A stretch of DNA of 64,000 bases from an uncultured Myxococcales bacterium. GTDB taxonomy: Bacteria > Myxococcota_A > UBA9042 > DTJE01. A program made the position numbers and the translations under genes. The first letter of the stretch is position 1. Each line of letters starts with the position of its first letter. Location: NCBI GenBank assembly GCA_903936705.1, contig CAIZWN010000015.1, forward strand, positions 124,001 through 188,000, given 5' to 3'. Of this stretch, positions 34,801 through 51,747 are shown piece after piece. The notes beneath the pieces were generated by a model. That model ran no database searches. It saw only the letters and a list, made by a program, of their open reading frames with translations, and was not told where the DNA came from.

Positions 34801-35857
34801 TGCCACCATCAGGGCCGTCCGCCGACGCATTGGTGCCCTGGCAGTTCTCGATGCTGCCGTTGTTGCAATACGCCTTGCCCTTGCATGAACCCCACTGATT
34901 AACCGGCAGGTCGCATTCAATGGCGGCAATCAATTCGTCGGTGGATCCGTTGCAGTTGTCGTCCTGGAGGTTGCATGACTCGGCAGACGGCGAATGTGCG
35001 GTACAAGGCTTGTCGCACGTCCTCGTGGCAACGCATTTGCCGAAAATATTCTCTGAATAGCATTCAGTCGTATATCCATCGTCCTTGAATTTCTTGGTGC
35101 ACGGGCATTCGCCGTTGGTCGGCCGGCACTGCTTGACTTCGCCACCGCTGGTTGCAACCGGCACGCAATCGAAAGTCTGCCCCTGATAGTTGGTGCAATC
35201 ACGCGAGGTTTCGCAAGGCGAACCACAGAACTTTCCGTTCTGGCCGTTGTCGATGCACAGAAAGCGTCGGTTCATGGCGCCGGTCGAAGGCACGCAGTCC
35301 TGATCGGCCTGGCACGGACGGCACAGGTTCGGGAACGGGTTGATGCAGAAGAACCGCTTTTCGATGCCGACCGATACCTGGTCGCAAGTCCAGCCCTGAG
35401 GGCAGGCAATACCCGGTCCACAAGGCTTCGAGCAGACCGCGCCATCCATGGTCGGGACGCAGAACTCCTGGTAGCAGTCGGCGAAGGTCGTGCACGGGCA
35501 CAGGAACTGTCCCGGACACCCCTCGATTATTTCCCCGTCGGTCACGTCCTCGCCACCAAGCGGATTTTCAGCAACCGGAACGTCGCCGATATCACCAGGG
35601 TCATCGATCCCATCCGAAATTCCTTCGCTGGATGTCCCATCAGTTGGGATAGTGTCCCTTGTCGTCTCGGAGTCCCGTGAGCTATCGCCGGCATCCTGGT
35701 CGGCGATAATGCCATCGGGCACCTCCGGCAGGAGATCCCTTGAAACATCGCCATTCCCCAGGTCGGTGATTGAATTTCCACCACCACCGCACGAGGTGGT
35801 CAGCGAAAGGGCAATAGCCACCAGCACCAACATGGAGGAACGAAGCTGGGTTCGCAT
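31865..35857 (-). CDS. Giant lipoprotein with thrombospondin-3-like and MopE-like metal-binding repeats
   Basis: 1330 residues; ATG at 35857 follows AGGAGG. The signal ends in LTTSC at about residue 23, a type II lipobox. An acidic Asp/Ser/Gly linker (about 30-115) leads to a Cys-rich region (about 115-290). Residues about 290-360 and 780-1090 hold MopE-type motifs of the form ENCxxxDDNCxGxxDE, known as copper/metal-binding in Methylococcus MopE. Between them (about 390-750) are around ten calcium-binding TSP3-type units such as DxDGDxxxDxxDNCP and GDACDCD. The C-terminal 200 residues look like a pre-peptidase/visual beta-sandwich (GSDEDWYSVQ). Expected location is the outer membrane surface, binding Ca or other divalent metals. 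Function unknown. Confidence 0.82.
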   Translation of the reverse strand: MRTQLRSSMLVLVAIALSLTTSCGGGGNSITDLGNGDVSRDLLPEVPDGIIADQDAGDSSRDSETTRDTIPTDGTSSEGISDGIDDPGDIGDVPVAENPLGGEDVTDGEIIEGCPGQFLCPCTTFADCYQEFCVPTMDGAVCSKPCGPGIACPQGWTCDQVSVGIEKRFFCINPFPNLCRPCQADQDCVPSTGAMNRRFLCIDNGQNGKFCGSPCETSRDCTNYQGQTFDCVPVATSGGEVKQCRPTNGECPCTKKFKDDGYTTECYSENIFGKCVATRTCDKPCTAHSPSAESCNLQDDNCNGSTDELIAAIECDLPVNQWGSCKGKAYCNNGSIENCQGTNASADGPDGGISTCNGVDDDCDGTTDEGFPDTDSDGSMDCVDPDIDGDGVANALDNCPNVWNTDQANNDDSDELPGQKKGDACDDDDDNDTILDGLDNCPFVKNPLQSDVDGDRIGDACDCDADKDGIPNTADLDMRGGKCPDPGLSKDNCPLVLNVDQLDTDLDLQGDACDCDVDGDEVFNGNPGCVTPEKPDNCRTIVNPLQTDTDLDLIGDACDCDIDNDKVLNNNPGCAVLVTPDNCIYVPNADQADTNGNKIGDACDCDIDSDGYFNANPGCPACSPCDNCPYTANPGQEITLGGPEGDACKNDWDSDGIPNDTDNCPRKWNQDQADLDLDQIGDVCDCDIDEDGFGNDGIDKLGASCPTPDPLDNCPRIANSSQSDLDGNHIGDACDCDIDGDGDPQPNFECPTPVDPDCEPENPAVSNLVSEVCANNIDDNCNGFIDEEGGTFCQDFYYDEDDDKFGTPQSKCLCKATLNWRAPVGTDCNDKDASINPGAQEICNNGRDDNCNGSENDLNALNCTRYYFDSDVDNYGTGDFECRCYPAGGQYTARFTNDCKDDDPNINPGKTEVCNNGIDDNCINGQNDENGTNCHWYYYDGDADTYGTASSKCFCFENATLFFTATKPGDCNDENSKVNPAMREVCNSDNIDYNCDGFLNTDGADGCLNYYYDGDRDGYGRDGDFRCQCASRGDYLAPESGDCQDANPNINPGVAEVCDGIDNNCDGRRDENPTALCGTVPHGTTICRSTATCDVDLCDQWFNNVDPFWQNGCECEADANDQAQQGDTCSNAIPLGPLWDQGGALPLVSGRIVPGSDEDWYSVQAMDSVDSGSFAAPGHNLFNLVVEMKSPVGGTLKVEVRRGGCTTTGTTCGGTVFQWKADKEEDCVTKPPVPEIPEYLWGCCGSGQCESKTDILVPPVFPPEVFTPESACCNNVAQCTDSRAVHHCGDNGETFFIRVYRDSTFPASTSCSQLDYLLEISNGRVTLAAI

Positions 35858-35921
35858 CAGGAGCCTCCTGTACCATTGTCTCTGACGGACTCCAACCGCC
35901 GGCCGGATGAAATCCCACGGT

Positions 35922-35950
35922 ATTGTACCCATCGATCAAAGTGAATTCAA
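35922..35950 (-). promoter_or_regulatory. Promoter of the giant MopE/TSP3 lipoprotein gene
   Basis: On the minus strand TTGAAT (35950-35945), a 17-bp spacer and TACAAT (35927-35922). The ATG follows about 65 bases further on. Good agreement with sigma70-type hexamers. Confidence 0.55.
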
Positions 35951-36593: not shown

Positions 36594-38345
36594 GTGAACG
36601 TCCTGATACCAATCGCTGTCGGAGCGGCGCTGCTGTGGCTGGGCAGCCGCTTCTATGGCCGCTTCCTGGTACGACGCCTTGGCCTGGAGCCCAATAATCC
36701 AACGCCAGCGGTGACCAGGGAGGACGGCCGCGATTTCGTTCCAACCCGCACGCCGGTACTGTTCGCGCACCACTTCAGCGCGATCGCGGGCGCCGGCCCC
36801 ATCCTGGGACCGACCATCGCCTTGATGTACGGGCTGGCGCCCGGATGGATCTGGGTCATCCTGGGCGGCATCTTCTTCGGCGCTGCCCACGACCTGGTGG
36901 CTCTGGTAGCTTCGGTGCGCCAGGGCGGCCGGTCGATGGCCGAGGTGGCCCGTAATTCCCTGGGCGAAGCAGGCTTCGGCCTGTTCGTGCTGTTCACGCT
37001 GGTCATGATCGTGCTGGTCACATCGTCCTTCCTCGCCGCCACCTCGATTTCGCTGACCTCGATGTGGCCTGCCGTCGAACTGGGCCTGCGCCCTGCCGAT
37101 TCCTGGATGCGTATCGTTGATGTGGGCGGCGTACCCTACGCCGTCATCGGCGGCATAGCATCGACCTCGGTTGTCGTCATCACTCTGGCATCGCCCCTGC
37201 TGGGCTGGCTGATGTACCGCAAGGGCATGAAGACCAACAAGGCATGGGTCCTGGCCACGGTAATCTGCGCGGCTTCCATTGCGGCCGGCATCTATATGCC
37301 CATCACGTTGGACCCGAAGGTCTGGATGCTGGTGCTGTCGGTCTACGTGCTGCTGGCAGCCGGCTTGCCTGTATGGCTGATCCTGCAACCCCGCGACTTC
37401 ATAAACGTACAGATCCTCTACGTCGGCATCGGGGCCCTGGTGATTGGCCTGATTGTAGCGGGCATGGGAGGCCTGACCCTGCAGGCGCCCCTGATAGACG
37501 TGGCCCGGGGCGAATCCTCCCCAAGCCTGGGCCCGATCTGGCCGTTCCTGTTCACGACGATAGCGTGCGGCGCCATCTCGGGCTTCCACAGCCTGGTTGC
37601 CTCGGGCACCTCGTCCAAGCAGGTCCGCACCGAGGGCGACATCAAACTCATTGCCTTCGACGGCATGCTGCTGGAAAGCCTGTTGGCGCTGTGCGTACTG
37701 GTTGCCGTTGGGTCGGCGCTGTCTTTCGACGACTACGCGCGGCTGGTGCACCCGACCATCGAAGGCGCCAAGTCAAACCCGATCCTGGCATTCTCGCTTT
37801 CCGTCGGACGCCTGTGCGAGATGGCCTTTGGTATCCCGACTGCGGCCGGCACCGTTTTCGGCATCCTCCTGGTCGAAGGCTTCGTGGTGACCACGCTGGA
37901 CGCCGCGGTGCGCATCAACCGATACCTTTTCGAGGAACTGTGGCAGATCGCGTTCAGGGGAAAAGTCCCCGCGTTGCTGCGACACTACTGGTTCAATTCG
38001 GGCCTGTCGGTGCTGCTGATGCTGGGCCTGGCCTGGACGAACGCCTTCAATGCCATCTGGCCGGTGTTCGGATCGGCAAACCAGCTGCTGGCGGCGCTGG
38101 CACTGATCGCCGTATCGGCGTGGCTGATCGGACTGGGCAAGAAGCCATGGTACACACTGCTCCCGGCAGGCGTGATGCTGGTAACCACGATCGGAACGCT
38201 GTGCCTGCTGGTAGTCCGGTACGTCGAGGCCGGCCAGTGGACCCTGCTGGCGGCGGACCTGGCGTTGATGATCCTGTCGGCCGCACTCGTGGCCCTTGCC
38301 GTCCTGCGCTTTGCACGAAAGCGGCAGCCGCCAAAGGCGATCTGA
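36594..38345 (+). CDS. cstA: Carbon starvation protein CstA family transporter
   Basis: 583 residues with about 16 transmembrane helices; CstA-type carriers import peptides or pyruvate across the inner membrane. Family hallmarks: FAHHFSAIAGAGPILGP near residue 60, GAAHDLVALVASVRQGGRSM, a FHSLVASGTSSKQ loop and WPVFGSANQLLAALAL. The start is GTG at 36594 after AGGGAG at nine bases. It is shorter than E. coli CstA (about 700 residues), as in many non-enteric forms. Codon choice is strongly GC-biased, like the porin-symporter operon downstream, suggesting high expression. Confidence 0.88.
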   Translation: MNVLIPIAVGAALLWLGSRFYGRFLVRRLGLEPNNPTPAVTREDGRDFVPTRTPVLFAHHFSAIAGAGPILGPTIALMYGLAPGWIWVILGGIFFGAAHDLVALVASVRQGGRSMAEVARNSLGEAGFGLFVLFTLVMIVLVTSSFLAATSISLTSMWPAVELGLRPADSWMRIVDVGGVPYAVIGGIASTSVVVITLASPLLGWLMYRKGMKTNKAWVLATVICAASIAAGIYMPITLDPKVWMLVLSVYVLLAAGLPVWLILQPRDFINVQILYVGIGALVIGLIVAGMGGLTLQAPLIDVARGESSPSLGPIWPFLFTTIACGAISGFHSLVASGTSSKQVRTEGDIKLIAFDGMLLESLLALCVLVAVGSALSFDDYARLVHPTIEGAKSNPILAFSLSVGRLCEMAFGIPTAAGTVFGILLVEGFVVTTLDAAVRINRYLFEELWQIAFRGKVPALLRHYWFNSGLSVLLMLGLAWTNAFNAIWPVFGSANQLLAALALIAVSAWLIGLGKKPWYTLLPAGVMLVTTIGTLCLLVVRYVEAGQWTLLAADLALMILSAALVALAVLRFARKRQPPKAI

Positions 38346-38492: not shown

Positions 38493-38522
38493 TTGACACC
38501 CCTTCCCGGTCATCGGTAGGAT
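38493..38522 (+). promoter_or_regulatory. Promoter of the FliA-type sigma factor gene
   Basis: Consensus TTGACA (38493-38498), an 18-bp spacer and TAGGAT (38517-38522), 21 bases before the GTG. The best-matching promoter in the window. Confidence 0.6.
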
Positions 38523-38543: not shown

Positions 38544-39245
38544 GTGACGCAGCTTGATGTCTCCAGGTTCCTGCCGCTGGTAAGAACCGTTGCAACGCGA
38601 ATGGCTGCACGGCTGCCGCGCAATCTCGATATAGACGATCTGATAGGGGCCGGGGTGCTTGGTTTGCTGAACGCGGCTCGCCAGTTCGATGAGGAAAAGG
38701 GTGTTCCATTCGACCGGTACGCCGAGATTCGAATTCGCGGGGCAATCCTTGACGAACTGAGAGCCCTGGACCAGACACCTCGTTCGATCCGGAGGCAGTC
38801 GGGGGAGGTTGCCGGCGTCGTTCGAACGCTGACGTCCGTTCTGGGGCGCGCTCCGCATCCCGATGAGGTCGCCACAGGTCTCGGAGTGACAATCGACCGC
38901 TATCACCAGATGGTGACGCGCATCTCGCCGGTGATCGTCCTTGGCTTTGACGACATCGGTCTTGTAAACGACGACGAGAAGCGGGACATAATCCAGTATC
39001 TGAGGGATCCCGGCGCAGTCGATCCCACTGCCGAGACCGGCTTCAGAGAAGCTGCCGAGCGCCTCGCCGCAGCATTGGAACATCTTACCGACCGGCAGCG
39101 GCAGGTGGTCACCTTCTACTACTACGAAGGGATGAATTTCAAGGAAATTGCCGACCTGCTTGGCGTCACCGAGGGACGCATCTCCCAGTTACACACCGCG
39201 TCCATGGCCCGCTTGAAAATCATCCTCAAAAACTCGGACGGGTGA
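38544..39245 (+). CDS. RNA polymerase sigma factor, FliA/WhiG-like
   Basis: 233 residues with sigma70 regions 2, 3 and 4: RNLDIDDLIGAGVLGLLNAARQFD (region 2, shown here as the run from Asn26), FDRYAEIRIRGAILDELR, a short region 3 with PHPDEVATGLG, and region 4 with LTDRQRQVVTFYYYEG and the helix-turn-helix FKEIADLLGVTEGRISQLH. This is the flagellar/sporulation sigma28 subgroup. The GTG start follows GGAGG at five bases. No flagellar, chemotaxis or anti-sigma gene is next to it; it lies between cstA and a glycan-utilisation operon, so its regulon is open. Confidence 0.88.
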   Translation: MTQLDVSRFLPLVRTVATRMAARLPRNLDIDDLIGAGVLGLLNAARQFDEEKGVPFDRYAEIRIRGAILDELRALDQTPRSIRRQSGEVAGVVRTLTSVLGRAPHPDEVATGLGVTIDRYHQMVTRISPVIVLGFDDIGLVNDDEKRDIIQYLRDPGAVDPTAETGFREAAERLAAALEHLTDRQRQVVTFYYYEGMNFKEIADLLGVTEGRISQLHTASMARLKIILKNSDG

Positions 39246-39472: not shown

Positions 39473-41029
39473 ATGAAGACGATCATTGACGAGATCCGGG
39501 TCGGCAGTTGCGCGGTGTTGACGACCTTGCTGCTGCTTGGGGTTCCCGCCAGGGGGCAGGAATTGCCGCCGGCAACGGCCCTGGATTCCGCTGCCAAGGT
39601 GAAGGCCCTGGAGGAAGCGGTCAAGGCGCTTCAGGGCGAGATGGCTTCCTTGAAGGCGGTGGCCGAGACCAGCACCAAGGCGAAGGCCGAAGCGGCGCCC
39701 GTCGAACCCAAGTCCGAGGCGCTTGGCGTGGACGGCAGCAGGCGTAAGCTGCCGATGTTCGAGGCCCACGGCCAGTTGCACAACCTGCTGATCTTCCGGA
39801 ACGACACCGACTTCGACAGACGAAAGCCGCTTTACAACGAGAACGGCCAGACGTCGGGAACCTTCGCGACGGTGTTCGCCCCGACGCTGCAGTGGAACCT
39901 GACCGACAAGGTTCACGTGTTCTACGAGGCCGAGATCGGGCTGAACTACTGGAGCAAGAACAACCCGGACCAGGAGAATGCCCTGTCGAAGGACATCTTC
40001 ATCCTGAAGCACAGGCAGATATACGCGGAAGGCGAACTGGCGAACGGACGGTTCGGGTTCAAGGTCGGCTACCAGTACTTTACCGACACGACCGCGCTGT
40101 TCCTGGGACACTGGATTGGCGCGGCGCAGGTGTGGCATTCGTGGGCAAAGGGCCAGAAAATGGGGCTGTACTTCGGGATGATTCCAGATTCGACCTACGA
40201 GGGACTGGACATCACGATGAACAACTTCCGCCATGACATCTTCACCTTCGGCGGACGAACCGATCTGACCTTTGGAAAGCAATGGAATTTGAACGTCGGC
40301 GTTCATGCGCTGTATGACACTCACGTGGTCGATCGGACCCGTTGGCTGGTTGCGCCGAACCTGCACCTGGAGGGCCGGTCGGACTGGCTGGCTAACAACT
40401 CGGTGAAGGTGTCGGGGGCGCTTGACGGCGTGGTGCAGTGCGGCAAGTCGAACAACAGCGCCCTGGACGGCAGGGACCAGCATCTGTTGGCATGGGCCGC
40501 GCAGGGTAACGTGAAGGTCGAAACAAAGCCTGTGGCTCTTTCGGTGAACGTGCTGGCACTGTCGCCGGATGACGCCTACCAGGGAAACAGCAAGGAAGGG
40601 GCTTTCTTCTACTCGTCCAAATCAACCTCGCCCACCGTGTACTTCACCGAGGACGAGACCAGAAACTGGTACGACCAGCTTGATCGGCGCATGGGTCGCT
40701 TCGACGGCGGGTTCTACCAGCACCGGGCCGGCCTGATGCTGTCGGACCTCAAGCTGACCTTGCAGGTAGTGCCCTGGTTCCGTCCCAGCATCATCGTGGG
40801 ATACGGCATCGTACTGCAGCCCAAGAACGCCCTGGGCGAGCGCAACCTGGGCTTCGAGGGCAACATTGACCTGGCCTTCCTGTGGACCAAGCACCTGGTG
40901 GCGCGCGTGATGTTCGGCGGCATGCAGCCTGGCAAGGCGGCTGGCGCGCTGCTGAACCAGATCGCGCCCCAGGAAAAGAAGACCGATGGGATGTGGTGGA
41001 CCGAGGCGGGCCTGTCGGTGATCTTCTGA
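39473..41029 (+). CDS. Outer-membrane beta-barrel (porin-like) protein with coiled-coil N-terminus
   Basis: 518 residues. The signal peptide ends near PARG-QE. A helical coiled-coil segment (about 40-72; repeated KALEEAVKALQGEM type) is typical of porins that trimerise or bind peptidoglycan. From about 95 to the end come alternating amphipathic strands (LQWNLTDKVHVFYEAEIG, GRFGFKVGYQYF, MGLYFGMI, WNLNVGVHAL), and the last residue is Phe after LSVI, a classic outer-membrane insertion signal. It opens an operon with a GH5 lipoprotein and an SSS symporter, so it is probably the outer-membrane pore for their substrate. Confidence 0.7.
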   Translation: MKTIIDEIRVGSCAVLTTLLLLGVPARGQELPPATALDSAAKVKALEEAVKALQGEMASLKAVAETSTKAKAEAAPVEPKSEALGVDGSRRKLPMFEAHGQLHNLLIFRNDTDFDRRKPLYNENGQTSGTFATVFAPTLQWNLTDKVHVFYEAEIGLNYWSKNNPDQENALSKDIFILKHRQIYAEGELANGRFGFKVGYQYFTDTTALFLGHWIGAAQVWHSWAKGQKMGLYFGMIPDSTYEGLDITMNNFRHDIFTFGGRTDLTFGKQWNLNVGVHALYDTHVVDRTRWLVAPNLHLEGRSDWLANNSVKVSGALDGVVQCGKSNNSALDGRDQHLLAWAAQGNVKVETKPVALSVNVLALSPDDAYQGNSKEGAFFYSSKSTSPTVYFTEDETRNWYDQLDRRMGRFDGGFYQHRAGLMLSDLKLTLQVVPWFRPSIIVGYGIVLQPKNALGERNLGFEGNIDLAFLWTKHLVARVMFGGMQPGKAAGALLNQIAPQEKKTDGMWWTEAGLSVIF

Positions 41030-41054
41030 CCGGCGAATACAGCAGGGGGATCAA

Positions 41055-43718
41055 ATGAGAATCCTGAACATGATTCTAACGGCCTCGCTGGTCGTGGCGG
41101 TCGGTATTCTAGGTTGCGACGGCGGTGTTCCATCACGGGCTCCCCTTCCGTCATCGCGCGTGACAACGGACCTTACTCACCTGAAGGACAGCCAGGGGCG
41201 TTACGTCTTTTTGCACGGCGTGAACCTGTCCGGAAGCACCAAGGTGCCAAAGTCAGTCGATGGCAAGGAATTGAAGCCGACTGACCTGGCCATCCCCTAC
41301 AACAACGGTGATCCGTCCTACGTTGGCAAACCGTGGGATGACACGGGCTGCACGTTCGACGCGACCGGGAGCTACAACCCGGCGTCCGAGGCGGTCTGCG
41401 AGCCGGCCAGGGAAATCATCAAACTGCGAGGCGTCGGCTTCAACGTCTTTCGCTTCCTGCTGAACTGGGAAGGGATCGAGCACGAAGGCCCCGGGTTATA
41501 CGACTACGATTACCTGAATTCCATCGCGCGACAGGTCAAGATCGCCGAACACTACGGCGTCTACATCCTGCTGGACATGCACCAGGACTCGTACAGCCGC
41601 CACCTGGTGGCAATGTACAACGAGAAACCGTCCTACAAGGACGAGAACGGCAACACGGTATACCCCCCGCGCGGTTCCATCGAGAACATGATCCTGTCGC
41701 TGGTGCCGCCTTACACCGACGCCGTGCGCGGCGAAGGCGCCCCAAGGTGGGCCGTCGAGAAATGCCTGTTCGAAAAGCACATGGACGCTGAAACCTGGGG
41801 AACCCCTCGCTTGATCAGCGGGATCACCGATCCAAACGTCAACTTGTCGAATATCATCGACTTGCTGACGAAGCTGCTGGGCGAAGGCGGAGGCGGAGGC
41901 CCGGCAATCCCGCCGTGGGTCACCGAACTGCTGACCAAGGTACCGAACCCGGCCGTTCCGGTCACCGACACATCGGACCTGCTGCCCTTCACTAACTGGG
42001 GCGTGATGTCGATGACATCAATCGACACGGCGCGCAACTTCGCATGCCTGCTGTCGGGATTCTTCGGCGCCGACGACCCCTACAAGCGCGGTGGCGCCTA
42101 CAAGGATCATTTTGTCAAAGACGGCAACGGGACGCAGGTCCCGGTCTCTACGTACTTGCAGGCGGCCTACGCTAAAATGTGGCGCCAGGTAGTCATCTCG
42201 CTGAAGGCGAACAACGGCGGCAAGGTTCCGGCCAACGTCATCGGGTACGACATCATCAACGAACCGAACGGCAACTTCATCACGATGACGGCTGCGGCGG
42301 CGATCTTCAGCACCGGTTTCTACCAGTCGGCGCAGGACACGCTGGTAAACCTGCTGGGCAAGGAAACGGGCGCGCAAATCTTCGACACGTTGACCGCGCT
42401 GCGCCTGCTGCCAATCCTGCCAGCGAAACCTGTCGAGCCGATCGATCCAGGCACGGGGGCCACTGCCGACGAGAAGGCCTTATACGACCAGGCCAAGGCC
42501 GACTACCCGGCGGCAAAGACGGCGTACGACGCAGAGATCGAGACCGTCAAGCACGACTGGGGCTTCCAGTACACGGACCTCTTCGGCGTCGTCGGCCTGA
42601 ACACCGGCTACGACCGGAACTACATGTCGCCGTTCTACGAAGTGGTCGGGCGCGAGATCTTCGAGGAGGATCGCGATGCCGTGATCTGGTTCGAGCCGGC
42701 GATGAGCATCTCGTCGCTGATCAGCACCTCCGGCGGCATGTGGGACACCGGCATGACAAAGCCCCACATCTGCAGATGCGAGGAACCTGGATCTGCCATG
42801 GAAAACAAGTCCGTCGACTGCGACGACACCTCCTGCAAGGTGATCAATCAGGCTGACACAATCTACGAACCTCACTTCTACGCCGACATCTACCCATTCA
42901 TAGGCTTCAACCAGCCGTCCCGCGACTTCACGACCGAGGAAGTCAAGTACCGCGACTACGACAGCGGCCTGCAGGGCAACCTGAACATCGTCACGTGGAA
43001 CCTCGAGAACGTTCCGGCCGTCTATGGCGAGTTCGGCACCTACTACAACTTCGGCGGCATCGAGAAGTCGTTCAAGGAGGACTTCGAGGTGTCCTCCCAG
43101 ATCCTGGACAACTACTACGAGTCGCTGGAGCGCATGTTCATGCACCGGATCTTGTGGTGCTACACCCCGGACAACGACCCTCGTTACGGCGACTGGTGGA
43201 ACAAGGAGGACTTCAGCATCTGGAAGGGCTGGAAGGACGCCGACCTCGACATGGACCGTGACATCGGTCTGGCCAAGCCAGTCGTGACGACCACCGCGAA
43301 GGCCATTGCGGAAGGAACTTTCCGCTGCGAGAAGGCGTGGTCGCGCCCCTACCCGCGATTCATGGCCGGCAAGCCCGTGTCGCTGCACTTTTTCAGCCCC
43401 TACCACTACTTCGACCCGGATAAGGGCGAGGTGCCACCCGAGCGCGAATTCGAATTGGTGTACGAGGCCCGCGAGACCAGCGCGCCCACCGAGATCTTCG
43501 TTCCGGCAATCCAGTACCCCGACAGCGAAGGCTTCTACGTGTGGCTGTCCGACGGATACGCGTCCTGGGATCCGGCGACTCGCGTCCTTTACCACTACCC
43601 GGTCAACGATGAACCTGGCGCGCGGCACTGGATCCGCATTCTGCCGCCGTTGTCCGAACGGCCCTCGACTGGCTGGCAGTACTACATCCGCGGTTCCGAG
43701 GTAGTAGCCAGAAACTGA
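41055..43718 (+). CDS. Lipoprotein glycoside hydrolase family 5, endoglycoceramidase-like
   Basis: 887 residues. The leader ends in ILGC (Cys21), so the enzyme is probably membrane-anchored. GH5 core: FLHGVNLSG near 53-60, FNVFRFLLNWEG, YILLDMHQDSY (170-180), the acid/base Glu403 in INEPNG, a YEPHFY motif (604-609) and the nucleophile Glu659 in YGEFG. The DMHQDSY and GEFG context matches endoglycoceramidases, which release oligosaccharide from ceramide. A large insertion (about 225-360) and another (about 425-505, charged helix) separate core motifs. A C-terminal beta domain (about 775-880) is as in EGCase II. Flanked by porin and symporter genes, it probably releases a sugar for import. The real substrate could be another glycoside. 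Confidence 0.78.
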   Translation: MRILNMILTASLVVAVGILGCDGGVPSRAPLPSSRVTTDLTHLKDSQGRYVFLHGVNLSGSTKVPKSVDGKELKPTDLAIPYNNGDPSYVGKPWDDTGCTFDATGSYNPASEAVCEPAREIIKLRGVGFNVFRFLLNWEGIEHEGPGLYDYDYLNSIARQVKIAEHYGVYILLDMHQDSYSRHLVAMYNEKPSYKDENGNTVYPPRGSIENMILSLVPPYTDAVRGEGAPRWAVEKCLFEKHMDAETWGTPRLISGITDPNVNLSNIIDLLTKLLGEGGGGGPAIPPWVTELLTKVPNPAVPVTDTSDLLPFTNWGVMSMTSIDTARNFACLLSGFFGADDPYKRGGAYKDHFVKDGNGTQVPVSTYLQAAYAKMWRQVVISLKANNGGKVPANVIGYDIINEPNGNFITMTAAAAIFSTGFYQSAQDTLVNLLGKETGAQIFDTLTALRLLPILPAKPVEPIDPGTGATADEKALYDQAKADYPAAKTAYDAEIETVKHDWGFQYTDLFGVVGLNTGYDRNYMSPFYEVVGREIFEEDRDAVIWFEPAMSISSLISTSGGMWDTGMTKPHICRCEEPGSAMENKSVDCDDTSCKVINQADTIYEPHFYADIYPFIGFNQPSRDFTTEEVKYRDYDSGLQGNLNIVTWNLENVPAVYGEFGTYYNFGGIEKSFKEDFEVSSQILDNYYESLERMFMHRILWCYTPDNDPRYGDWWNKEDFSIWKGWKDADLDMDRDIGLAKPVVTTTAKAIAEGTFRCEKAWSRPYPRFMAGKPVSLHFFSPYHYFDPDKGEVPPEREFELVYEARETSAPTEIFVPAIQYPDSEGFYVWLSDGYASWDPATRVLYHYPVNDEPGARHWIRILPPLSERPSTGWQYYIRGSEVVARN

Positions 43719-43761
43719 CACTGACCCGACCGCCAGGGCCCAACGTCTTCAGGAGGTACCC

Positions 43762-45441
43762 ATGGCCACGATCGAACTGGCAGTCCTAGACTGGGCGATC
43801 ATCGTCTTGTACTTCGTAGCGATCATCGGGATCGGCCTGTACCTGCGGAAGTTCACCAAGACTGGTGACGACTTCTTCATGGGCGGGCGCAAGAATTCTT
43901 CATGGGTGGCAGGCCTCGCCTTCCTGTCGGCGAACCTCGGCGCCCTGGAAATCCTTGGCTGGACCGGCGGCACGATGAAGTACGGCATGTTCGTGTCGCA
44001 CTTCTACTGGCTGGGAGCCATTCCCGCGATGCTGTTCCTGGGCCTGTACATGATGCCTTTCTACTACAGCAGCAAGATCCACTCGGTCCCAGGCTACCTG
44101 AAACTTCGTTTCGACGAGCGTACCCGGCTGCTGAACGCCATAACGTTCGCGGTCATGACGCTGCTGATGTCGGGCATCAATCTGTACCTGATGGCACTGG
44201 TGTTCAAGGTCCTGCTGGGCTGGGACTGGCATCTCAGCATGTGGGTGTCGGCGGCTGCCATCGGCTGCTATATCACGCTGGGCGGCTTGATGAGCGCGAT
44301 CTTTACCGAGATCGTGCAGTTCTTCCTGATCTGGGCCGGCCTGTTCCTGGTGTCGATCCTTGGTGTGATGGAGTTCGGCGGCATCGCCAACGTCATGCAG
44401 GGCCTGCCGCCCACCATGACCTCCTTGTGGGCAACGACTGGAGACGCCAGCAGCAACGCCATGGGCGTGACGTGGCTGGGGCTGGTGATGGGACTGGGGT
44501 TCGTTCTGTCGTTCGGCTACTGGACCACCGACTTCCTGGTGGTGCAGCGGGCGTTCTCGTCGAAGGATTTGCGCAGCGCGCGCCTGACGCCGATCACGGC
44601 CTCGTTCTTCAAGATGGCCCTGCCCTTCATCGTCGTGGTCGCCGGCATGGTGGCCTTCAAGCTGGTGATGGACCCGGCCAGCGGGTTCAAGCTGCCACCC
44701 GACCCGTCCGACCCCAGCAAGCTGTGGAACGACGCGGCACTGCCGCTGCTGATTGTGCGCTACTACCCTGTGGGCCTGGTGGGCCTGGGGATCACCGCGC
44801 TGCTGGCTGGTTTCATGGCCGGTCAGGCAGGCAACGTATCGGCATTCAACACAGTCTGGACCTACGACATCTACAAGGCCGTAATCAACAAGAAGGCCAC
44901 CGACGAGCACCTGGTGTGGATGGGCCGCATGACCACAATCGTCGGCGTCCTGCTGTCGGTCGCAACAGCGTACCTGGCGATGCAGTTCAACACCATCATG
45001 GATTACATCCAGGCCATCTTCAGCTGGGTCAACGCGCCGCTGTTCGCCACGATGTTGCTGGGCATGTTCTGGAAGCGGACCACCTCGGCCGGCGCCTTCT
45101 GGGGCTTGCTGGCAGGCATGATTGCTTCGTTCGCCATCTTCATGGGCTTCCGATTCAATGCCATCGGTCCCGAACTGGCCCAGGTATTGACTTTCAGCCC
45201 TGCGCCATCGGACATGACGCGAAACCTTTGGCAGGCCTCGTGGGCGTGGGTCGTATGCTTCGGCGTGACCATACTCATCAGCCTGTTCACCACGCCGAAG
45301 TCCGACGCCGAACTGGAAGGCCTGGTCAAGGGCCTGACCACGAAGGTCGAAGAGGGAAAGGTCGGGCTGCTGGGTCGCCCGGGGTTCTGGGCGGCGGTGG
45401 CACTGATCGTCGTGATCGCGTTGAACGCGTACTTCTGGTGA
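43762..45441 (+). CDS. Sodium/solute symporter (SSS family)
   Basis: 559 residues, about 14 transmembrane helices, of the SSS (SGLT-like) family. Recognised by the opening DWAIIVLYFVAIIGIG with FFMGGR at about residue 36, GWTGGTMKYG, SVPGYLKLRFDERTR and GQAGNVSAFNTVWTYDIYK with FMAGQ on helix 8. AGGAGGTACCC precedes the ATG. Together with the upstream porin and lipoprotein hydrolase it forms a sugar-release and import chain; the substrate is inferred to be a sugar but not shown. Confidence 0.88.
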   Translation: MATIELAVLDWAIIVLYFVAIIGIGLYLRKFTKTGDDFFMGGRKNSSWVAGLAFLSANLGALEILGWTGGTMKYGMFVSHFYWLGAIPAMLFLGLYMMPFYYSSKIHSVPGYLKLRFDERTRLLNAITFAVMTLLMSGINLYLMALVFKVLLGWDWHLSMWVSAAAIGCYITLGGLMSAIFTEIVQFFLIWAGLFLVSILGVMEFGGIANVMQGLPPTMTSLWATTGDASSNAMGVTWLGLVMGLGFVLSFGYWTTDFLVVQRAFSSKDLRSARLTPITASFFKMALPFIVVVAGMVAFKLVMDPASGFKLPPDPSDPSKLWNDAALPLLIVRYYPVGLVGLGITALLAGFMAGQAGNVSAFNTVWTYDIYKAVINKKATDEHLVWMGRMTTIVGVLLSVATAYLAMQFNTIMDYIQAIFSWVNAPLFATMLLGMFWKRTTSAGAFWGLLAGMIASFAIFMGFRFNAIGPELAQVLTFSPAPSDMTRNLWQASWAWVVCFGVTILISLFTTPKSDAELEGLVKGLTTKVEEGKVGLLGRPGFWAAVALIVVIALNAYFW

Positions 45442-45453
45442 CGGAGGTGTTTC

Positions 45454-45672
45454 ATGTCGCAGGACAGTGAGGGCCGTGATCCCCTGCCGATCTGGTTCTT
45501 CGTCGGCGTGATCCTGGCGGTCTACGGCGTGCTTGTCATCGCTGGCAACTTCATGACGTCCCGTCCGACGATCCTTGCGGAGACCCGGCCCGGCCTGTGG
45601 TGGGGCTCCCTGATGGTGGTGGCCGGCGGGATCTTCACGGCCATCGGGGTCGTGTCCCACAGGAAGGGGTGA
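45454..45672 (+). CDS. Small two-helix membrane protein next to the symporter
   Basis: 72 residues with two hydrophobic helices (about 13-31 and 49-66) joined by a short polar loop. CGGAGGTG precedes the ATG by four bases. It is 12 bases from the symporter stop and 4 bases before the cupin gene, so it is in the operon. Small membrane partners often accompany SSS transporters (for example DUF485/DUF4212 types), but this one was not matched to a named family. Confidence 0.6.
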   Translation: MSQDSEGRDPLPIWFFVGVILAVYGVLVIAGNFMTSRPTILAETRPGLWWGSLMVVAGGIFTAIGVVSHRKG

Positions 45673-45676
45673 CTTC

Positions 45677-46078
45677 ATGAGGTTCGTCGAGACGCGACCT
45701 CCAAGTTTTCCCCAGGCGCCAGTCGATGTTCTGCTTCAGCCCATCCCCGGCGAGCGGTGGCAGGTGCTGTGCGGAGATGCGGGACATTGGCGTGTGGGGA
45801 TCTACAGCCCACCCGAGGCATGCATCGCCGACTGTGGTGAACTTGAGCGCCATGACTGCCCAGAACTGTTCCTTCTGCTGTCCGGACACGTGACGCTGGT
45901 CCTTTCTGACGGGACTTGCGGCGTACGGGAACTGCCGCTGCAAACGGGACAGCCGGTACTTGTCGAAACTCCCCATACCGCCTACTGCCCGGACGGGCCC
46001 CATTCCGGAACCTGCTTCGTGGTCGAACGTGATGCGTTTGACACCGAGTACCGGCGACCGGCTGACTGGGGACAATAG
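45677..46078 (+). CDS. Cupin-like small protein
   Basis: 133 residues of alternating strands consistent with a single cupin barrel. ERHDCPELFLLLSGHVTLVL resembles the first cupin motif, and LQTGQPVLVETPHTAYCPDGP the second. Metal ligands are partly unusual: a His in the first motif and one in the second, where two each are common. It is last in the porin-symporter operon. Possible roles are sugar isomerisation or regulation; not determinable here. Confidence 0.55.
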   Translation: MRFVETRPPSFPQAPVDVLLQPIPGERWQVLCGDAGHWRVGIYSPPEACIADCGELERHDCPELFLLLSGHVTLVLSDGTCGVRELPLQTGQPVLVETPHTAYCPDGPHSGTCFVVERDAFDTEYRRPADWGQ

Positions 46079-46249: not shown

Positions 46250-49200
46250 TCAGCAACCAGGTTCACGGATGTGGACGCAATAGAAATTATTACAATAATC
46301 GAAGGTACAGGGGTCAGAGTCCACACAATCGGAATTGACGTTACAAGCTGAACAGGTAGGTCCTGCTACGTTCTCGCACAACTGAGACACCGTATTACAC
46401 CGATCCGCGGAGCAACCATTTCCATCGTCGCAACCATTTGCAACTACGACACATGCTCCTGTCCCTTGTTGGCTGCAAAATTCGTATCCACAGCCTAGAA
46501 TCGGTCCCGCGCACTTGTCAGAAACGCTACATGCACCAGTCACTGTGTCGCAAACGTCGATCGTACACAAGTCTCCGTCGTTGCAGTCCGAATCCAGGAT
46601 GCAGCAGCCTGGGATCGCCGAGAACACGCAGCGATGCGTCGACTGGTTACAGGTATCAGAAGTACAGATATTGGTATCGACGCAATCCAAACTGTCCCTG
46701 CAGCAATCGCCACCTGCAATCGGGCTGAAGCGGCAGACATTCATGGCCAGGTCGCAGGAATCGGAGGTGCAAATGTCGTTGTCGTTGCAAGAGGGCTTTG
46801 CCTGGCTGCAGCAATTGGCAATGGCAACGTGCTTGCACTGAGAGGTACCCAGGTCACACGAGTCAGTGGTACACGGGTCACCGTCATCACACGTTTGGTT
46901 GGCCAGGTTGCAGCACTCGGGAATGTTGTCATGCACGCATTGTGAGGCAACCAGGTTGCACGAGTCGGTGGTACACGAGTTGCTGTCGTTACACGTTTGG
47001 TGGGCCAGGTTGCAACACTCGGGAATGTTGTCGTGCACGCATTGCAAGGCAGCCACGTTGCAGCTGTCGGACGTGCATGAATTGGCATCGTCGCAGTTGA
47101 GGTCGTGATCACTGCAACAACCCGAAATGATCTGCACTGGCAGACACGCTCCCGTTACGGAATTGCAACCATTGACGGTACATGGATTTCCGTCATCGCA
47201 ATCCTCCGCTGGGTAGGAACAGGCCCCGGTCAATTGATTGCAGACGGTCCTTGTACAATTTATGGTCGATGGCGTGCAGGTTGGTTTGACATCACAGGTT
47301 CCTGTTGACTGGTTGCAAGATGCGCTGAAGCACAAGTCATTCGAATAGCCGCAGTCAACAGGTGTGTACACGCATTCGCCGCTGGCCGGGTCGCACTTGT
47401 CCTGTGTGCAGGGCTTGTTGTCGTTGCAGGGCTTCAACACATTCGAGCATGCCCCGGTGTTGATGTTGCAAGAGTCGATGGTGCAGAGCTCGCCGTCGTC
47501 GCAAGCAGCGGCATGGGTACAAACGCCGGTGCCCGGAGTGCAGGCATCCCTGGTGCAAATATTGTTGTCCGAGCAGTCCTTTGGAATTGCAACGCACCCT
47601 CCGGCCGAGGCTGAACAAACTGCCGCAAGACAGGGATCGGCAGGCGCCTGGCAAGAAATCGGCTCGAATTTACATCCCGTGACCGTGTTGCATGAATCAC
47701 TGGTGCACAGGTTGTTGTCGTCGCACGCGATATCGACATACTGGCATTGACCGCTGGCAGGGTCGCACGAATCGGCGGTGCACGCATTGGAGTCGCCACA
47801 AACCTTGGCGGTGTAGCTGCAGCGACGCGTCGCAAGGACGCACGTGTCGACGGTGCAAGGATCGGGGTCTCCGCAGTCGGCGTCCTTCAGGCAATCGCAC
47901 TTCGAGCCACCCGTGTACGTGTGCACACATTGACCATTCGACTGGTTGCAGGAGTCCAGCGTGCATGGGTCGCCATCGTCGCAATTCTTGGGAGTCCACT
48001 GGCACCCTGGCAACAACGGGTTGCACCAGTCCAAAGTGCAAAGGTCGCCATCGCCGGCGCAAGCCACGGCGGCATGAGCACAGGCCCCCGTCAACATTAC
48101 GCAGGTGTCGGTAGTGCAGGCATTTTGATCGTCACAGGTGTTGGCCGGAAAGGCACACGTCGTGGTAACCGGGTCGCAAACGCCCCGATGGCAAAGATCC
48201 GGCGAAACACAGTCTGAATTGAAATTGCAGTGAGTTCCGCAGCCCGCCACCGGCACGTGCAGACAACTGCCGGTCGAAGCCTCGCAGGAATCCGTGGTGC
48301 ATGCGTTCCCGTCATCACATGAACGCTCGGTGGACTTGCATTGACCGGACAATGGGTCGCACCAGTCGATGGTACAGGGCAGCCCGTCGTTGCAAACCCT
48401 CAGCACGTATTCGCACTCGCCCGTCGCCAACGGACATTGCTCGGACGAGCAGGGATTTCCGTCGTCGCAGTTCTTGGGGGTGTAGTGACACAAATTGTTC
48501 GCACGATCACATGTATCAACCGTGCATGGGTTGTTATCCGTGCAATCCCAGGCCGTCATGCAGAAACATCCAGGAACATTCCTGGCCGTGTGCACACAGG
48601 CCCCGGAGGTCAAATCGCACGAGTCCAGGGTGCACGCATCCCCATCATCGGCGCAAACGACCGGTTCGTGCTGGCAAAGTCCAGTGCCAGCCTCGCACGA
48701 ATCAACCGTACACTTGTTGCCGTCGCTGCAATCCTTCGGGGGGTGCAGACAGGTATTGGTGGTCTTGTCACAAGCATCCGCAGTGCATGGATCGCTGTCG
48801 ATACAGTCGGGTCGCAGAGTGCTGCCGCACAGCCCGGTTGCGAGGTCACACGAATCTACCGTGCAGGAATTGTCATCGCTGCAATTCTTCTGCACGTTCT
48901 TGCACTGCTGCGCTTCCAGATCGCACGAGTCCACCGTGCACCGGTTGTTATCGTTGCAAGAATGCGGTGAGTACAGGCATCCGGAAAGGCTGTTGCACTT
49001 GTCGTCGGTACAGAAATTGTTGTCACCACAGTCCCGAGGGGCATGGGTGCATCCCTTGGCGGGGTCGCAACCGTCAACGGTGCAAAGGTCACTGTCATCA
49101 CAGTTCACCGGCCGGAAAAGGCATGTTCCATCCGCGCGGTTGCACGAGTCCAATGTACAAAGGTCGTTGTCATTGCAGATCTTGTCGTGATGCGTAACGT

Positions 49201-50542
49201 TGCCCGACAATGGATCACAGATATCGTCGGTGCACGGGTTGGCATCGCTGATGCCCTTGGGTTCAAAAACACATTCCCCGTTCGTCGGACTACAGCCATC
49301 AATCGTGCACGCGTCGTCGTCGTTGCAACCCTTGGGTGCATTGACGCATCCGATCCTGGTGTTGCACGAGTCGTCCGTACACAGGTTCCCATCGCTGCAG
49401 TTGGCAGGGGGATTCTTGCACGAACTGGTCAACTCGTCACAGATGTCATCGGTGCAGGGATTCAGGTCCCCGCAATCCCTGGGCTGGTACTTGCACTGGC
49501 CTGAAGACGCAATGCAGGTCCCGACGGAACAGAAGCCGAATTCGTTGCAAAGCTTCGGGGAATGGATGCAATCGCCATTGACCAGATTGCAGGTATCAAT
49601 AGTGCAGGGCAGTTTGTCGTCGCAATTCCTGGGCGTCAGCACACACTTACCGCTGGCTGGACTGCACGCATCGGTCTCGCAAAGCGTGCTGCCGGGACAG
49701 GATTTGGGAGTGTGTTTGCAGTCACCGGTCGACTTGTCGCAAGAATCCAGCGTGCAGCGATTACCGTCGTCGCAGGACTTGGCTACGCTGACGCACTGGC
49801 CGGACACGCGATCACAAAAATCGACAGTACAGGCGTCGTTATCGTCGCAATCCATAGGGATATAGTCGCAGAATCCCTGAACGCACTGATCGGAAGTACA
49901 GAGATTCGAGTCGTTGCACTTCTGCTGCTGGTCGACGGTGCAAGTCCTGCAACCCGAGGCCACGTCGAAAATACACCAGCCAGTAGTCGGATCGCATCGG
50001 TCCTCGGTGCAGATGTCCTTGTCATCACAAACGATTTCGGTATGAACGCAAAGTCCTGATGCCATATTACAGGCATCATCGGTACAGGGATTGTTATCCT
50101 GGCAATCCGAGGACCTGCTGCAGGTCTTGGGGACATCGACAACCGGGACGTCCTGACCCGCCGGAATATCTGTCCCGTGAACATCGACGATATCGGACGG
50201 GGACACTCCATCATCCAAAGACGTTACGGAGTCATCAGTGATTTCAATTTGCGGAACGTCAAGTTCGTTGACGTCCACCGAGACGCTGTCGTCGCGACCG
50301 GGATCCCGCGAGGCGTCATCACGACCTACGACAGCATCCAAGTCAGTCTGAACATCAAGGATCCCGTCATCGACCACGGATGCATCGACGTCGGTCAGGT
50401 CCTCGACGTCCGCTCCCAGATCTTCTTCGTAAAGATCGTCCCACGGATTTCCCGGTTTTGCCTTGCTGCATCCAGCAGCCATTGAAAGCACAACCGCAAG
50501 CAGCACGACCTGGCCCTTTCGGAACCTTGCGACCAACTTCAT
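46250..50542 (-). CDS. Giant Cys-repeat lipoprotein (CxDxNxCTxDxC repeats)
   Basis: 1430 residues. The leader ends in MAAGC (about Cys25), a lipobox. An acidic Asp/Val-rich linker (about 35-140) is followed by several dozen tandem units of about 25-34 residues of the form C-(D)-D-x-N-x-C-T-x-D-x-C-(D)-x-x-x-G-x-C. These are similar to the slime-mould CTDC (Dicty) repeat known in myxobacterial surface proteins, and each carries about six cysteines and several Asp likely to bind Ca. The protein ends directly after a repeat with no anchoring helix. GGAAGGCAG precedes the ATG. Probably an extended, disulfide-rich surface fibre. Confidence 0.78.
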   Translation of the reverse strand: MKLVARFRKGQVVLLAVVLSMAAGCSKAKPGNPWDDLYEEDLGADVEDLTDVDASVVDDGILDVQTDLDAVVGRDDASRDPGRDDSVSVDVNELDVPQIEITDDSVTSLDDGVSPSDIVDVHGTDIPAGQDVPVVDVPKTCSRSSDCQDNNPCTDDACNMASGLCVHTEIVCDDKDICTEDRCDPTTGWCIFDVASGCRTCTVDQQQKCNDSNLCTSDQCVQGFCDYIPMDCDDNDACTVDFCDRVSGQCVSVAKSCDDGNRCTLDSCDKSTGDCKHTPKSCPGSTLCETDACSPASGKCVLTPRNCDDKLPCTIDTCNLVNGDCIHSPKLCNEFGFCSVGTCIASSGQCKYQPRDCGDLNPCTDDICDELTSSCKNPPANCSDGNLCTDDSCNTRIGCVNAPKGCNDDDACTIDGCSPTNGECVFEPKGISDANPCTDDICDPLSGNVTHHDKICNDNDLCTLDSCNRADGTCLFRPVNCDDSDLCTVDGCDPAKGCTHAPRDCGDNNFCTDDKCNSLSGCLYSPHSCNDNNRCTVDSCDLEAQQCKNVQKNCSDDNSCTVDSCDLATGLCGSTLRPDCIDSDPCTADACDKTTNTCLHPPKDCSDGNKCTVDSCEAGTGLCQHEPVVCADDGDACTLDSCDLTSGACVHTARNVPGCFCMTAWDCTDNNPCTVDTCDRANNLCHYTPKNCDDGNPCSSEQCPLATGECEYVLRVCNDGLPCTIDWCDPLSGQCKSTERSCDDGNACTTDSCEASTGSCLHVPVAGCGTHCNFNSDCVSPDLCHRGVCDPVTTTCAFPANTCDDQNACTTDTCVMLTGACAHAAVACAGDGDLCTLDWCNPLLPGCQWTPKNCDDGDPCTLDSCNQSNGQCVHTYTGGSKCDCLKDADCGDPDPCTVDTCVLATRRCSYTAKVCGDSNACTADSCDPASGQCQYVDIACDDNNLCTSDSCNTVTGCKFEPISCQAPADPCLAAVCSASAGGCVAIPKDCSDNNICTRDACTPGTGVCTHAAACDDGELCTIDSCNINTGACSNVLKPCNDNKPCTQDKCDPASGECVYTPVDCGYSNDLCFSASCNQSTGTCDVKPTCTPSTINCTRTVCNQLTGACSYPAEDCDDGNPCTVNGCNSVTGACLPVQIISGCCSDHDLNCDDANSCTSDSCNVAALQCVHDNIPECCNLAHQTCNDSNSCTTDSCNLVASQCVHDNIPECCNLANQTCDDGDPCTTDSCDLGTSQCKHVAIANCCSQAKPSCNDNDICTSDSCDLAMNVCRFSPIAGGDCCRDSLDCVDTNICTSDTCNQSTHRCVFSAIPGCCILDSDCNDGDLCTIDVCDTVTGACSVSDKCAGPILGCGYEFCSQQGTGACVVVANGCDDGNGCSADRCNTVSQLCENVAGPTCSACNVNSDCVDSDPCTFDYCNNFYCVHIREPGC
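46889..47092 (-). repeat. Recent tandem duplication of a 102-bp unit inside the Cys-repeat gene
   Basis: Two direct copies, from 46889 and from 46991, spaced exactly 102 bp (34 codons). The first 47 bases of each copy differ at only a few positions, and the encoded unit includes CVHDNIPECCNLA twice. This is much closer than other repeats of the gene. Confidence 0.65.
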
Positions 50543-50647
50543 CTGCCTTCCCTCGGAAAGGTGGGGGACCCAACACCTGATTCTATCGGAAGCGCGACCC
50601 GGATACCAAGCAGATCCTCATGTTCTGAAATATGTTTGCCTGGCGAG

Positions 50648-50676
50648 AATCTACCCTAAACGATGCACGCTTTCAA
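50648..50676 (-). promoter_or_regulatory. Promoter of the giant Cys-repeat lipoprotein gene
   Basis: On the minus strand TTGAAA (50676-50671), a 17-bp spacer and TAGATT (50653-50648); the ATG is about 105 bases on. An opposing TTGACG (50677-50682) with TACAGA (50701-50706) might drive the epimerase gene, back to back with it. Confidence 0.42.
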
Positions 50677-50784
50677 TTGACGCCGGGCAGTGGGGGCCTG
50701 TACAGAAACAACTGCTTCATACCGAGAGCGGTGAGGCGCAAGAATGTCCACCGACGGGGAACCATCTGTTCCAGGGAGGCAGAC

Positions 50785-51747
50785 ATGCCGTTCACTTGCG
50801 AATCCATTGTTGGCACCGGAATTGACACGGTTGCGGGCCCAGGGCTGTCGATGTCAGTTCGTCGCTGCGGTGCAGAACTGGTGTCATTGATTTGGCAGGA
50901 CCCCCATCACGGCCCGGTCCCTCTGCTGTGGCGCGACGGCCTGGCCGAGGATCCGCCTCGCTACTGGAAAAGCCATGCGCCAATCCTGTTTCCTATTGTT
51001 GGAGGCCTGCACGACAACTCCTCGAAGACTACGGCCGGAGATGTCGTCAACTTCAACGGATTGCACGGCTTCGTACGACACAATGACCTCGAGAAGGTTC
51101 ACGCCGGCCCCTCGGAAGATGGATTCGAACTGAAATACCGGTTGACGGCCAACCCGACCACCAGGGCAATGTACCCATGGGAATTCGGGTTCGAGGTCTC
51201 GTATACCCTGCGAACGGACCGATTGGACTTGACCCTTGCGGTCGAAAACCGCGACTCACGGCCGATGCCCTATCAGCTTGGCTGGCACCCGGGATTTCGC
51301 ACACCGTTCCTGGCCGGCTCGAGAGAGAAGAAAGAGTGCCACGTGCGCCTTCCTGCATGTGGGTTTGATCGCCTGTTGAACGACGAAAGATGTTTCCTGA
51401 CCGGACAGCGGGTACCAATGGACGGTTCCGGAGATTTCCAATTCAGCGAACTGGGTTTGGACCTGACGTACATGTTCGATCTTGCCGCCATTCCGCAGGC
51501 CCGTCGCAGCGTCTCGCTGCTGGACCCGGACGAATCATTCGGGGTCCGCGTCGCCTTCCCGGACTTCCCGCACCTGGGCCTTTGGTCGGATGCCGGTGCG
51601 CCTTTCGTGTGCATCGAGCCTTGGCAGGGCATGGACGATCACGTAAGCCAGGAGCCATTTGATCGAAAGCTGGGGATAGTCATCCTGCCGCCGGGTGGTC
51701 GCGACGAAAGACGCTGTTCCATTGAGGTCCTGTCACACCCATCGTGA
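50785..51747 (+). CDS. Aldose 1-epimerase family protein
   Basis: Galactose-mutarotase-like beta-sandwich enzyme, 320 residues. The start ATG follows GGGAGGCAGAC, and the internal sequence fits the family: AELVSLIW, PILFPIVGGL, GLHGFVRHNDL, GWHPGFRTPF (His in the active site) and FVCIEPWQGMDD with the catalytic Glu near the C-terminus. It may act on hexose-6-phosphate or free sugars; the variant PILFPIVG...HGFVR favours the YeaD/LacX-like (aldose 1-epimerase-related) subgroup. Confidence 0.85.
   Translation: MPFTCESIVGTGIDTVAGPGLSMSVRRCGAELVSLIWQDPHHGPVPLLWRDGLAEDPPRYWKSHAPILFPIVGGLHDNSSKTTAGDVVNFNGLHGFVRHNDLEKVHAGPSEDGFELKYRLTANPTTRAMYPWEFGFEVSYTLRTDRLDLTLAVENRDSRPMPYQLGWHPGFRTPFLAGSREKKECHVRLPACGFDRLLNDERCFLTGQRVPMDGSGDFQFSELGLDLTYMFDLAAIPQARRSVSLLDPDESFGVRVAFPDFPHLGLWSDAGAPFVCIEPWQGMDDHVSQEPFDRKLGIVILPPGGRDERRCSIEVLSHPS

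Follow-up and report, generated by a model that had tools for sequence, protein, structure and literature searches.

A conserved operon around a lipoprotein GH5 glycosidase in uncultured Myxococcota: a candidate locus for scavenging galactose from galactosyl lipids

The closest described relatives of the glycosidase studied here are the fungal sterylglucosidases Sgl1 (7LPO) and SglA (8EXD). In the excerpted text of PMC8497620 the glucose in Sgl1 is held by Lys47, His142, Asn269, Glu270, Trp570 and Glu587 with Glu520 as the nucleophile; a wall made by Trp584 leaves room for one sugar, whereas EGCase II is without such a Trp and open for several sugars. The endoglycoceramidases EGCase II (2OSX) and EGC I (5CCU) and the endogalactoceramidase (6JYZ) belong to the same clan. 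GH5_12 is divided into a fungal clade and a clade dominated by bacterial enzymes and also includes a flavonoid glucosidase, as stated in the excerpt of PMC3526467, so that clan membership does not prove a lipid substrate. For sugar uptake and use, vSGLT, SGLT1 and the Leloir operons (galE-galT-galK) are the known systems to compare. Sulfoquinovose loci, which serve the sugar of the plant sulfolipid with another enzyme family, resemble the locus described here in idea only, as they too combine a glycosidase with transport for a thylakoid-lipid head group. Galactolipids count as the most abundant of all membrane lipids on Earth. In the open-access literature, with most subscription papers outside the scope, we found no locus by which bacteria would use galactolipid sugar, no endoglycoceramidase from myxobacteria, no bacterial GH5_12 enzyme acting on a glycolipid and no bacterial galactolipid glycosidase accompanied by a galactokinase. 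The combination of galactolipid and Myxococcota returned unrelated work only, judged by title and start of the abstract; MGDG galactosidase returned plant work, judged by title, and bacterial degradation of thylakoid galactolipid returned sulfoquinovose work.

We analysed a stretch of 64,000 nucleotides from an uncultured Myxococcales bacterium (GCA_903936705.1, contig CAIZWN010000015.1, positions 124,001 to 188,000), hereafter the window; coordinates refer to the window unless a locus (L) or contig (C) is named. All in all we lean slightly towards reading its central operon as a galactose-scavenging locus, in which galactose would be freed from a galactosyl lipid by a GH5 glycosidase and imported through a porin and an SGLT-like transporter. 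Genes for an outer-membrane barrel, the GH5 protein, a sodium/solute symporter (SSS), a 72-aa protein and a cupin-like protein lie on the plus strand at 39473–46078 with intergenic gaps of 25, 43, 12 and 4 bp, as a reading of this DNA made without database searches (the sequence-only reading) had it with five genes in line and short gaps between them. A purine-rich stretch is seen by eye ahead of each of the five gene starts. The extent of 39473–46078 given in that reading holds for these five genes and is too short for the unit as a whole, to which a sigma factor gene at 38544–39245 also belongs. Two very long lipoprotein-like genes on the minus strand frame the operon: the product of the one at 46250–50542 has 1430 aa with 25 stretches of Dicty_CTDC repeats (PF00526), the one at 31865–35932 encodes 1355 aa and is rich in Cys/Asp repeats by eye, with relatives upstream in L039–L042.

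A pattern-based scan of genome contigs gave a set of 14 close-relative loci (L039–L052), in which gene starts were placed with a home-made codon model and are approximate. This set overlaps with a set of 282 genomes of the phylum (L039 is the contig of genome G001 by coordinates), and counts from the two are not additive. By tblastn the barrel gene adjoins the GH5 gene in 13 of the 14 loci, the contig of L046 stopping inside GH5. The SSS gene is present in nine, always together with the 72-aa gene, and the cupin-like gene in six of these nine. Since gene order and presence are kept in relatives, the arrangement is more than chance. No lipid-handling gene was found to be conserved as a fixed part of the operon across the loci scanned.

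The gene at the head of the operon (38544–39245, plus strand) encodes an RNA polymerase sigma factor of the FliA/WhiG family with 233 aa (TIGR02479, 217.8 bits over a cut-off of 189.6). Orthologues with 60–84% identity lie upstream in seven of the 14 related loci (L039–L043, L045, L046). The distance to the next gene is 227 bp in the window and less than 60 bp, with approximate starts, in L041, L042, L045 and L046. The sigma factor is probably an operon-specific regulator. A weak candidate for a sigma-70-type promoter of the sigma gene (TTGACA, 18 nt, TAGGAT; 38493–38522, plus strand) agrees with the consensus at 10 of 12 positions; the consensus scan found two sites against a mean of 2.1 in shuffled sequences, and TTGACAC is seen by eye at a roughly equal place in L039 and L040. 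A FliA-type promoter near the sigma and barrel genes was sought with one simple pattern and dropped, there being no match in eight loci. A sigma factor 43% identical to that of the window (L080:10579–11526) is encoded next to the GH5 and barrel genes of a different family, which suggests that the association with the regulator is older. Directly upstream of the sigma gene the window carries a gene for a CstA-family transporter (36594–38345); no such gene was found beside the operon in the related loci scanned for the sigma factor.

The GH5 gene (41055–43718, plus strand) encodes a lipoprotein glycosidase of 887 aa, placed in the sterylglucosidase/endoglycoceramidase clan by Pfam, profile and Foldseek searches. 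It matches Cellulase (5.6e-13) and Glyco_hydro_5_C (3.3e-10) in Pfam and carries the motifs DMHQD at residue 174, NEP at 402 and GEFG at 658. Its lipobox Cys21 (codon 41115–41117, plus strand) is a Cys in 41 of 41 family members; the lipoprotein GH5 with DMHQDSY and GEFG motifs named in the sequence-only reading was thus found. At lipobox position +2, 28 of the 41 members have G, A or S, and the window protein has Asp. In E. coli, lipoproteins with Asp at +2 stay in the inner membrane, which speaks against an outer-membrane place of the enzyme; the host may follow another rule. The insertions described before as large and charged are indeed large, yet not specially charged, DEKR amounting to 20% in residues 184–360 and 19% in residues 408–515 against 22% in the whole protein.

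Searching the PDB with a profile of 35 members gave SglA at 6.6e-54, Sgl1 at 1.7e-44 and EGCase II at 3.5e-27, followed by 6JYZ and 5CCU of the same clan at about 5e-21, while other GH5 enzymes came at 5.8e-16 or worse. An ordinary cellulase was rejected on these values. The structural model of the protein (mean pLDDT 83) behaves alike in Foldseek: Sgl1 (4.4e-25) and SglA (4.0e-24) are best, endoglycoceramidases range from 1.7e-18 to 2.2e-12 and other glycosidases lie at 2e-5 and worse. The clan had therefore been named rightly before, well ahead of ordinary GH5 in both profile and fold. Aligned with VIA, the model reaches Z 29.4 and 2.8 A with SglA over 522 residues at 23% identity, and Z 28.9 and 3.0 A with EGCase II over 425 residues, a tie by Z. 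The protein is thus closest to Sgl1 and SglA in sequence profile and fold, with SglA and EGCase II tied by VIA Z. It shares with the two fungal enzymes the fold, the size class with large core insertions and eight active-site residues including the Trp wall, and differs from them in being a bacterial lipoprotein encoded in an operon with a porin, a transporter and, in relatives, galactose genes. With EGCase II, EGC I and the endogalactoceramidase it has clan, fold, the two catalytic glutamates and a DMHQD-type motif in common; their chains of 476–500 aa compare with 887 aa here.

HMMER alignments place Sgl1 residues K47, H142, N269, E270, E520, W570, W584 and E587 at K63, H176, N402, E403, E659, W701, W715 and E718 of the window protein. 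All eight are invariant in the 41 members except W715, which is Trp in 40 and Tyr in one; at the place of Sgl1 Asp144, 32 members carry Asp and nine carry Asn. Glu403 (NEP; Sgl1 Glu270; codon 42261–42263, plus strand) is the predicted acid/base and Glu659 (GEFG; Sgl1 Glu520, EGCase II Glu351; codon 43029–43031, plus strand) the predicted nucleophile, both by alignment and both kept in 41 of 41 members; the enzyme would use them in a retaining mechanism. Trp715 (codon 43197–43199, plus strand) is matched to Sgl1 Trp584 by alignment alone. As this Trp wall is kept in 40 of the 41 members, the family should take one sugar per cut, in contrast to the open site of EGCase II described in the excerpt of PMC8497620. 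This bears on the proposal, made from the letters of the window, that the enzyme is an endoglycoceramidase freeing oligosaccharides from glycosphingolipids, which we consider very unlikely. Common clan membership and the tie by VIA Z speak for it, as does the endoglycoceramidase model NF051847, the sole NCBIfam match with the E limit set at 0.1. However, this match scores 50.2 bits against a cut-off of 700 (the model is one of endoglycoceramidase I, and a distant EGCase might fall short too), the one-sugar Trp is kept almost throughout, and SglA aligns over 522 residues compared with 425 for EGCase II. The endoglycoceramidase assignment is thus not supported.

The residues kept in the active site are those of a glucosidase and none of them singles out galactose. 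The enzyme could be one for a glucosyl lipid such as a steryl glucoside or glucosylceramide, with glucose being imported and the galactose link being incidental or serving another enzyme. The top profile and Foldseek matches to sterylglucosidases and the eight of eight Sgl1 residues agree with such a role, as do SGLT1 as the second PDB match of the transporter and ceramidase-like genes 1.4–3.2 kb from paralogues in L055, L056 and L093. We nevertheless regard it as distinctly unlikely, since galactose genes are joined to the GH5 or transporter gene in five family-level groups and in varied orders, compared with none of 37 other GH5 matches, as set out below.

As to the rarity claimed for endoglycoceramidase in the sequence-only reading, the count made here covers the present GH5 family, which occurs in 30 of the 282 genomes of the phylum. 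In a tree its 41 members group together (96/99) against three GH5 sequences of related genomes; these outgroups are long-branched, of which the tree itself warns, and the tree serves for grouping and for the spread over clades. Label counts on the tree were uninformative, with two changes and 500 of 500 shuffles as low. The genome of the window holds two more family members of about 1006 and 969 aa around a 547-aa GH5 of another kind (L053, C5:331000–350900); no barrel or transporter of the operon families was found in these 20 kb. In two genomes belonging to the genus of the window, genes for neutral ceramidases (L056:3796–5505, L055:1856–3325 and L093:4110–5579) lie at 1.4–3.2 kb from paralogues of the GH5 gene. 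That of L056 matches PF04734 at 3.2e-96, and those of L055 and L093 are 33% identical to it. These neighbours possibly mark a glycosphingolipid branch of the family. A ceramidase as fixed partner was rejected, as it occurs near paralogues in these three loci only and, over the loci scanned, was not found close to the GH5 of the operon. A match to Fe-ADH_2, which we take to be glycerol-1-phosphate-dehydrogenase-like, also recurs near GH5 paralogues (L048:3–791, L054:4587–5621, L063:12936–13982).

The gene preceding GH5 (39473–41029, plus strand) encodes an outer-membrane beta-barrel of 518 aa, a putative sugar porin according to its AlphaFold2 model and Foldseek. Pfam and NCBIfam scans gave no significant match. 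The model, of moderate confidence (mean pLDDT 70), shows 18 strands preceded by a long N-terminal helix, in line with the outer-membrane barrel assigned from the sequence before. Foldseek returned AlgE as the best match (2.7e-15), then MOMP, OprD/Occ porins and chitoporins. The likeness to AlgE, OprD/Occ and chitoporins suits a channel that passes small polar solutes and not lipid. The barrel of the lipid channel FadL has 14 strands. A FadL-like channel was ruled out on the 18-strand model, whose confidence is middling, and on the matches to AlgE, MOMP, OprD/Occ and chitoporins. The barrel gene adjoins GH5 for 31 of the 41 family members; it was not found in the examined flank for nine, and the contig ends for one.

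The SGLT-like transporter (43762–45441, plus strand) has 559 aa and belongs to the sodium/solute symporter family, with Pfam SSF at 2.2e-52 and TIGR00813 at 230.4 bits over a cut-off of 184, so that the SSS symporter named earlier was confirmed. Its top PDB matches are vSGLT (2e-47) and SGLT1 (6.3e-47). We compared it with the galactose-site and sodium-site residues of vSGLT given in the excerpt of PMC4270436, counting positions by hand on the alignment. N58, K284, Q417 and Y253 correspond to vSGLT N64, K294, Q428 and Y263 and are kept, whereas E68, Q69, E88 and N260 of vSGLT are replaced by L62, E63, Y82 and S250, and the sodium-site serines S364/S365 by A353/G354 in 11 of 11 orthologues. All these residues, kept and changed alike, are invariant across the 11 orthologues. 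From this comparison sugar and ion cannot be read, and sodium coupling appears to be in doubt. The transporter gene further differs from those of vSGLT and SGLT1 in that a 72-aa gene comes after it. Orthologues occur in 19 of the 282 genomes, 18 of which carry the GH5 family; the sole genome without it holds a distant orthologue with 52% identity (G112:C25:22085–23680, L075). The conserved porin and transporter thus accompany GH5 across relatives, as the import chain of the sequence-only reading would have it. SSF transporters outside the orthologue group are also found beside galK, namely in G018, G031, G153, G188 and G270.

The 72-aa putative membrane protein (by eye; 45454–45672, plus strand) gave no significant match in family scans. 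Its gene follows SSS in nine of the nine SSS-bearing loci among L039–L052; after the SSS of L078 it was not found by tblastn. W14, F15, G18, W49, W50 and G51 are invariant in 12 sequences, and the protein is possibly a subunit of the transporter. The cupin-like protein of 133 aa (45677–46078, plus strand) is encoded between the 72-aa gene and the galactokinase gene in relatives. It is 60–87% identical in six relatives with H59, C61, E63, H100 and H109 being invariant. The gene announced before as a cupin is therefore in place; its fold has one weak match (TIGR03037, E 0.0049, 16.9 bits against a cut-off of 145.95).

The sugar is pointed to by the neighbouring genes, which the sequence-only reading did not bring in. 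A galactokinase gene (galK; TIGR00131 over cut-off) directly follows the cupin-like gene in L039, L041, L042 and L072, and by tblastn also in L043, L045 and L076. It is followed by a UDPGP-like gene in L039, L041, L042, L043, L072 and L076, with PF01704 confirmed for L039 and L072. Other orders are galT-galK-GH5-barrel in L060, galT-galK facing barrel-GH5 in L089, and GH5-barrel-galE-galT-galK in L081 (by NCBIfam), L082 and L083 (by tblastn), where an aldose epimerase gene (2.2e-24) adjoins galK in L083. The sugar genes of the last three loci are those of Leloir operons, from which these loci differ in that genes for a lipoprotein GH5 and a porin come first. In the family of the window itself the UDPGP-like gene comes after galK, and galT was not found in the cluster. 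The galactose-linked loci span five family-level groups (f1, f6, f11, f29, f42) and fall in two deep clades of the GH5 tree. Within L039–L052 galK is seen in only five of the 14 loci; contigs end early in L040, L046 and L047, and in the examined flanks of L044 and L048–L052 it was not found by tblastn.

Over the phylum, galK was detected in 75 of 282 genomes: 25 belong to the 30 that hold the GH5 family and 50 to the 252 that lack it; at 1e-40 it was absent from five of the 30. It lies within 4 kb of GH5 or SSS in 12 of the 25 genomes holding both, the genomes being related so that the Fisher p values overstate independence. In the remaining 13 it lies at 11 kb, at 24 kb or, for 11 genomes, on another contig, some at contig ends. 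As a control we took the 47 GH5 matches (E 1e-10) in those 25 genomes, 10 of which are this family by position. None of the 37 others, which come from 14 genomes including seven of the 12 linked ones, is on the contig of galK. These gene links support galactose well as the sugar and make it the strongest of our inferences, the activity of the GH5 protein itself being a prediction.

The genome of the window holds one galK over the cut-off outside the window (C15:193271–194392), 24 kb from SSS and in tandem with a UDPGP gene (L087, PF01704 checked). A galT-like gene lies elsewhere (100.4 against a cut-off of 102.1), and barrel and SSS orthologue are each present in a single copy. In L072 (G004) the SSS-72 aa-cupin set is joined to galK-UDPGP and the genes behind, and the latter (by eye pgk, tpiA, secG, parA and parB) are common to L072 and the window's genome. 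On account of these common genes and the junction in L072, the operon half and the galK-UDPGP half were probably adjacent in an ancestor. An aldose 1-epimerase gene (galactose-mutarotase-like; PF01263, 1.1e-17) at 50632–51747 on the plus strand, 4.5 kb downstream, is a possible satellite only.

Galactose genes beside GH5 would equally be expected if the enzyme freed galactose from a non-lipid beta-galactoside, such as an oligosaccharide, galactosyl glycerol or plant glycoside, in a galactoside-use operon that has nothing to do with lipid. The lack of a conserved lipid-handling gene in the operon and the flavonoid glucosidase listed for GH5_12 in the excerpt of PMC3526467 fit this explanation. 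It is in our view rather unlikely, as lipid glycosides are the substrates of the nearest solved relatives, whose lead over other GH5 is large in profile and fold alike, and as the lipobox Cys is present in 41 of 41 members. It is from the clan, whose solved relatives act on lipid glycosides, that we infer a lipid substrate.

For the galactose-scavenging locus we propose the following course. The GH5 lipoprotein, situated in the outer membrane, would cut a single beta-linked galactose off a galactosyl lipid, for which monogalactosyl-diacylglycerol of algal, cyanobacterial or plant membranes, or galactosylceramide, is the best guess. The 18-strand barrel would admit the freed sugar to the periplasm. 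Its uptake into the cell would fall to the SGLT-like transporter, of which the 72-aa protein may be a subunit. Galactokinase and the UTP-sugar-1-phosphate uridylyltransferase-like enzyme, encoded downstream in sister loci and 24 kb off in the window's genome, would feed the sugar to metabolism. The operon is probably turned on by the FliA/WhiG-type sigma factor encoded by its first gene.

We put forward tentatively, as a possibility that is rather less probable than not, that this is a bacterial locus for galactolipid use in uncultured Myxococcota, in which a surface GH5 of the sterylglucosidase clan removes the galactose head group of thylakoid galactolipids and which comes with a porin, a transporter, a kinase, a UDP-sugar enzyme and a sigma factor of its own. 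If true, a galactose-releasing member would join the sterylglucosidase/endoglycoceramidase clan, and a conserved operon of an uncultured group would be explained. It would also be the first bacterial locus for galactolipid use found in the literature searched, in contrast to sulfoquinovose.
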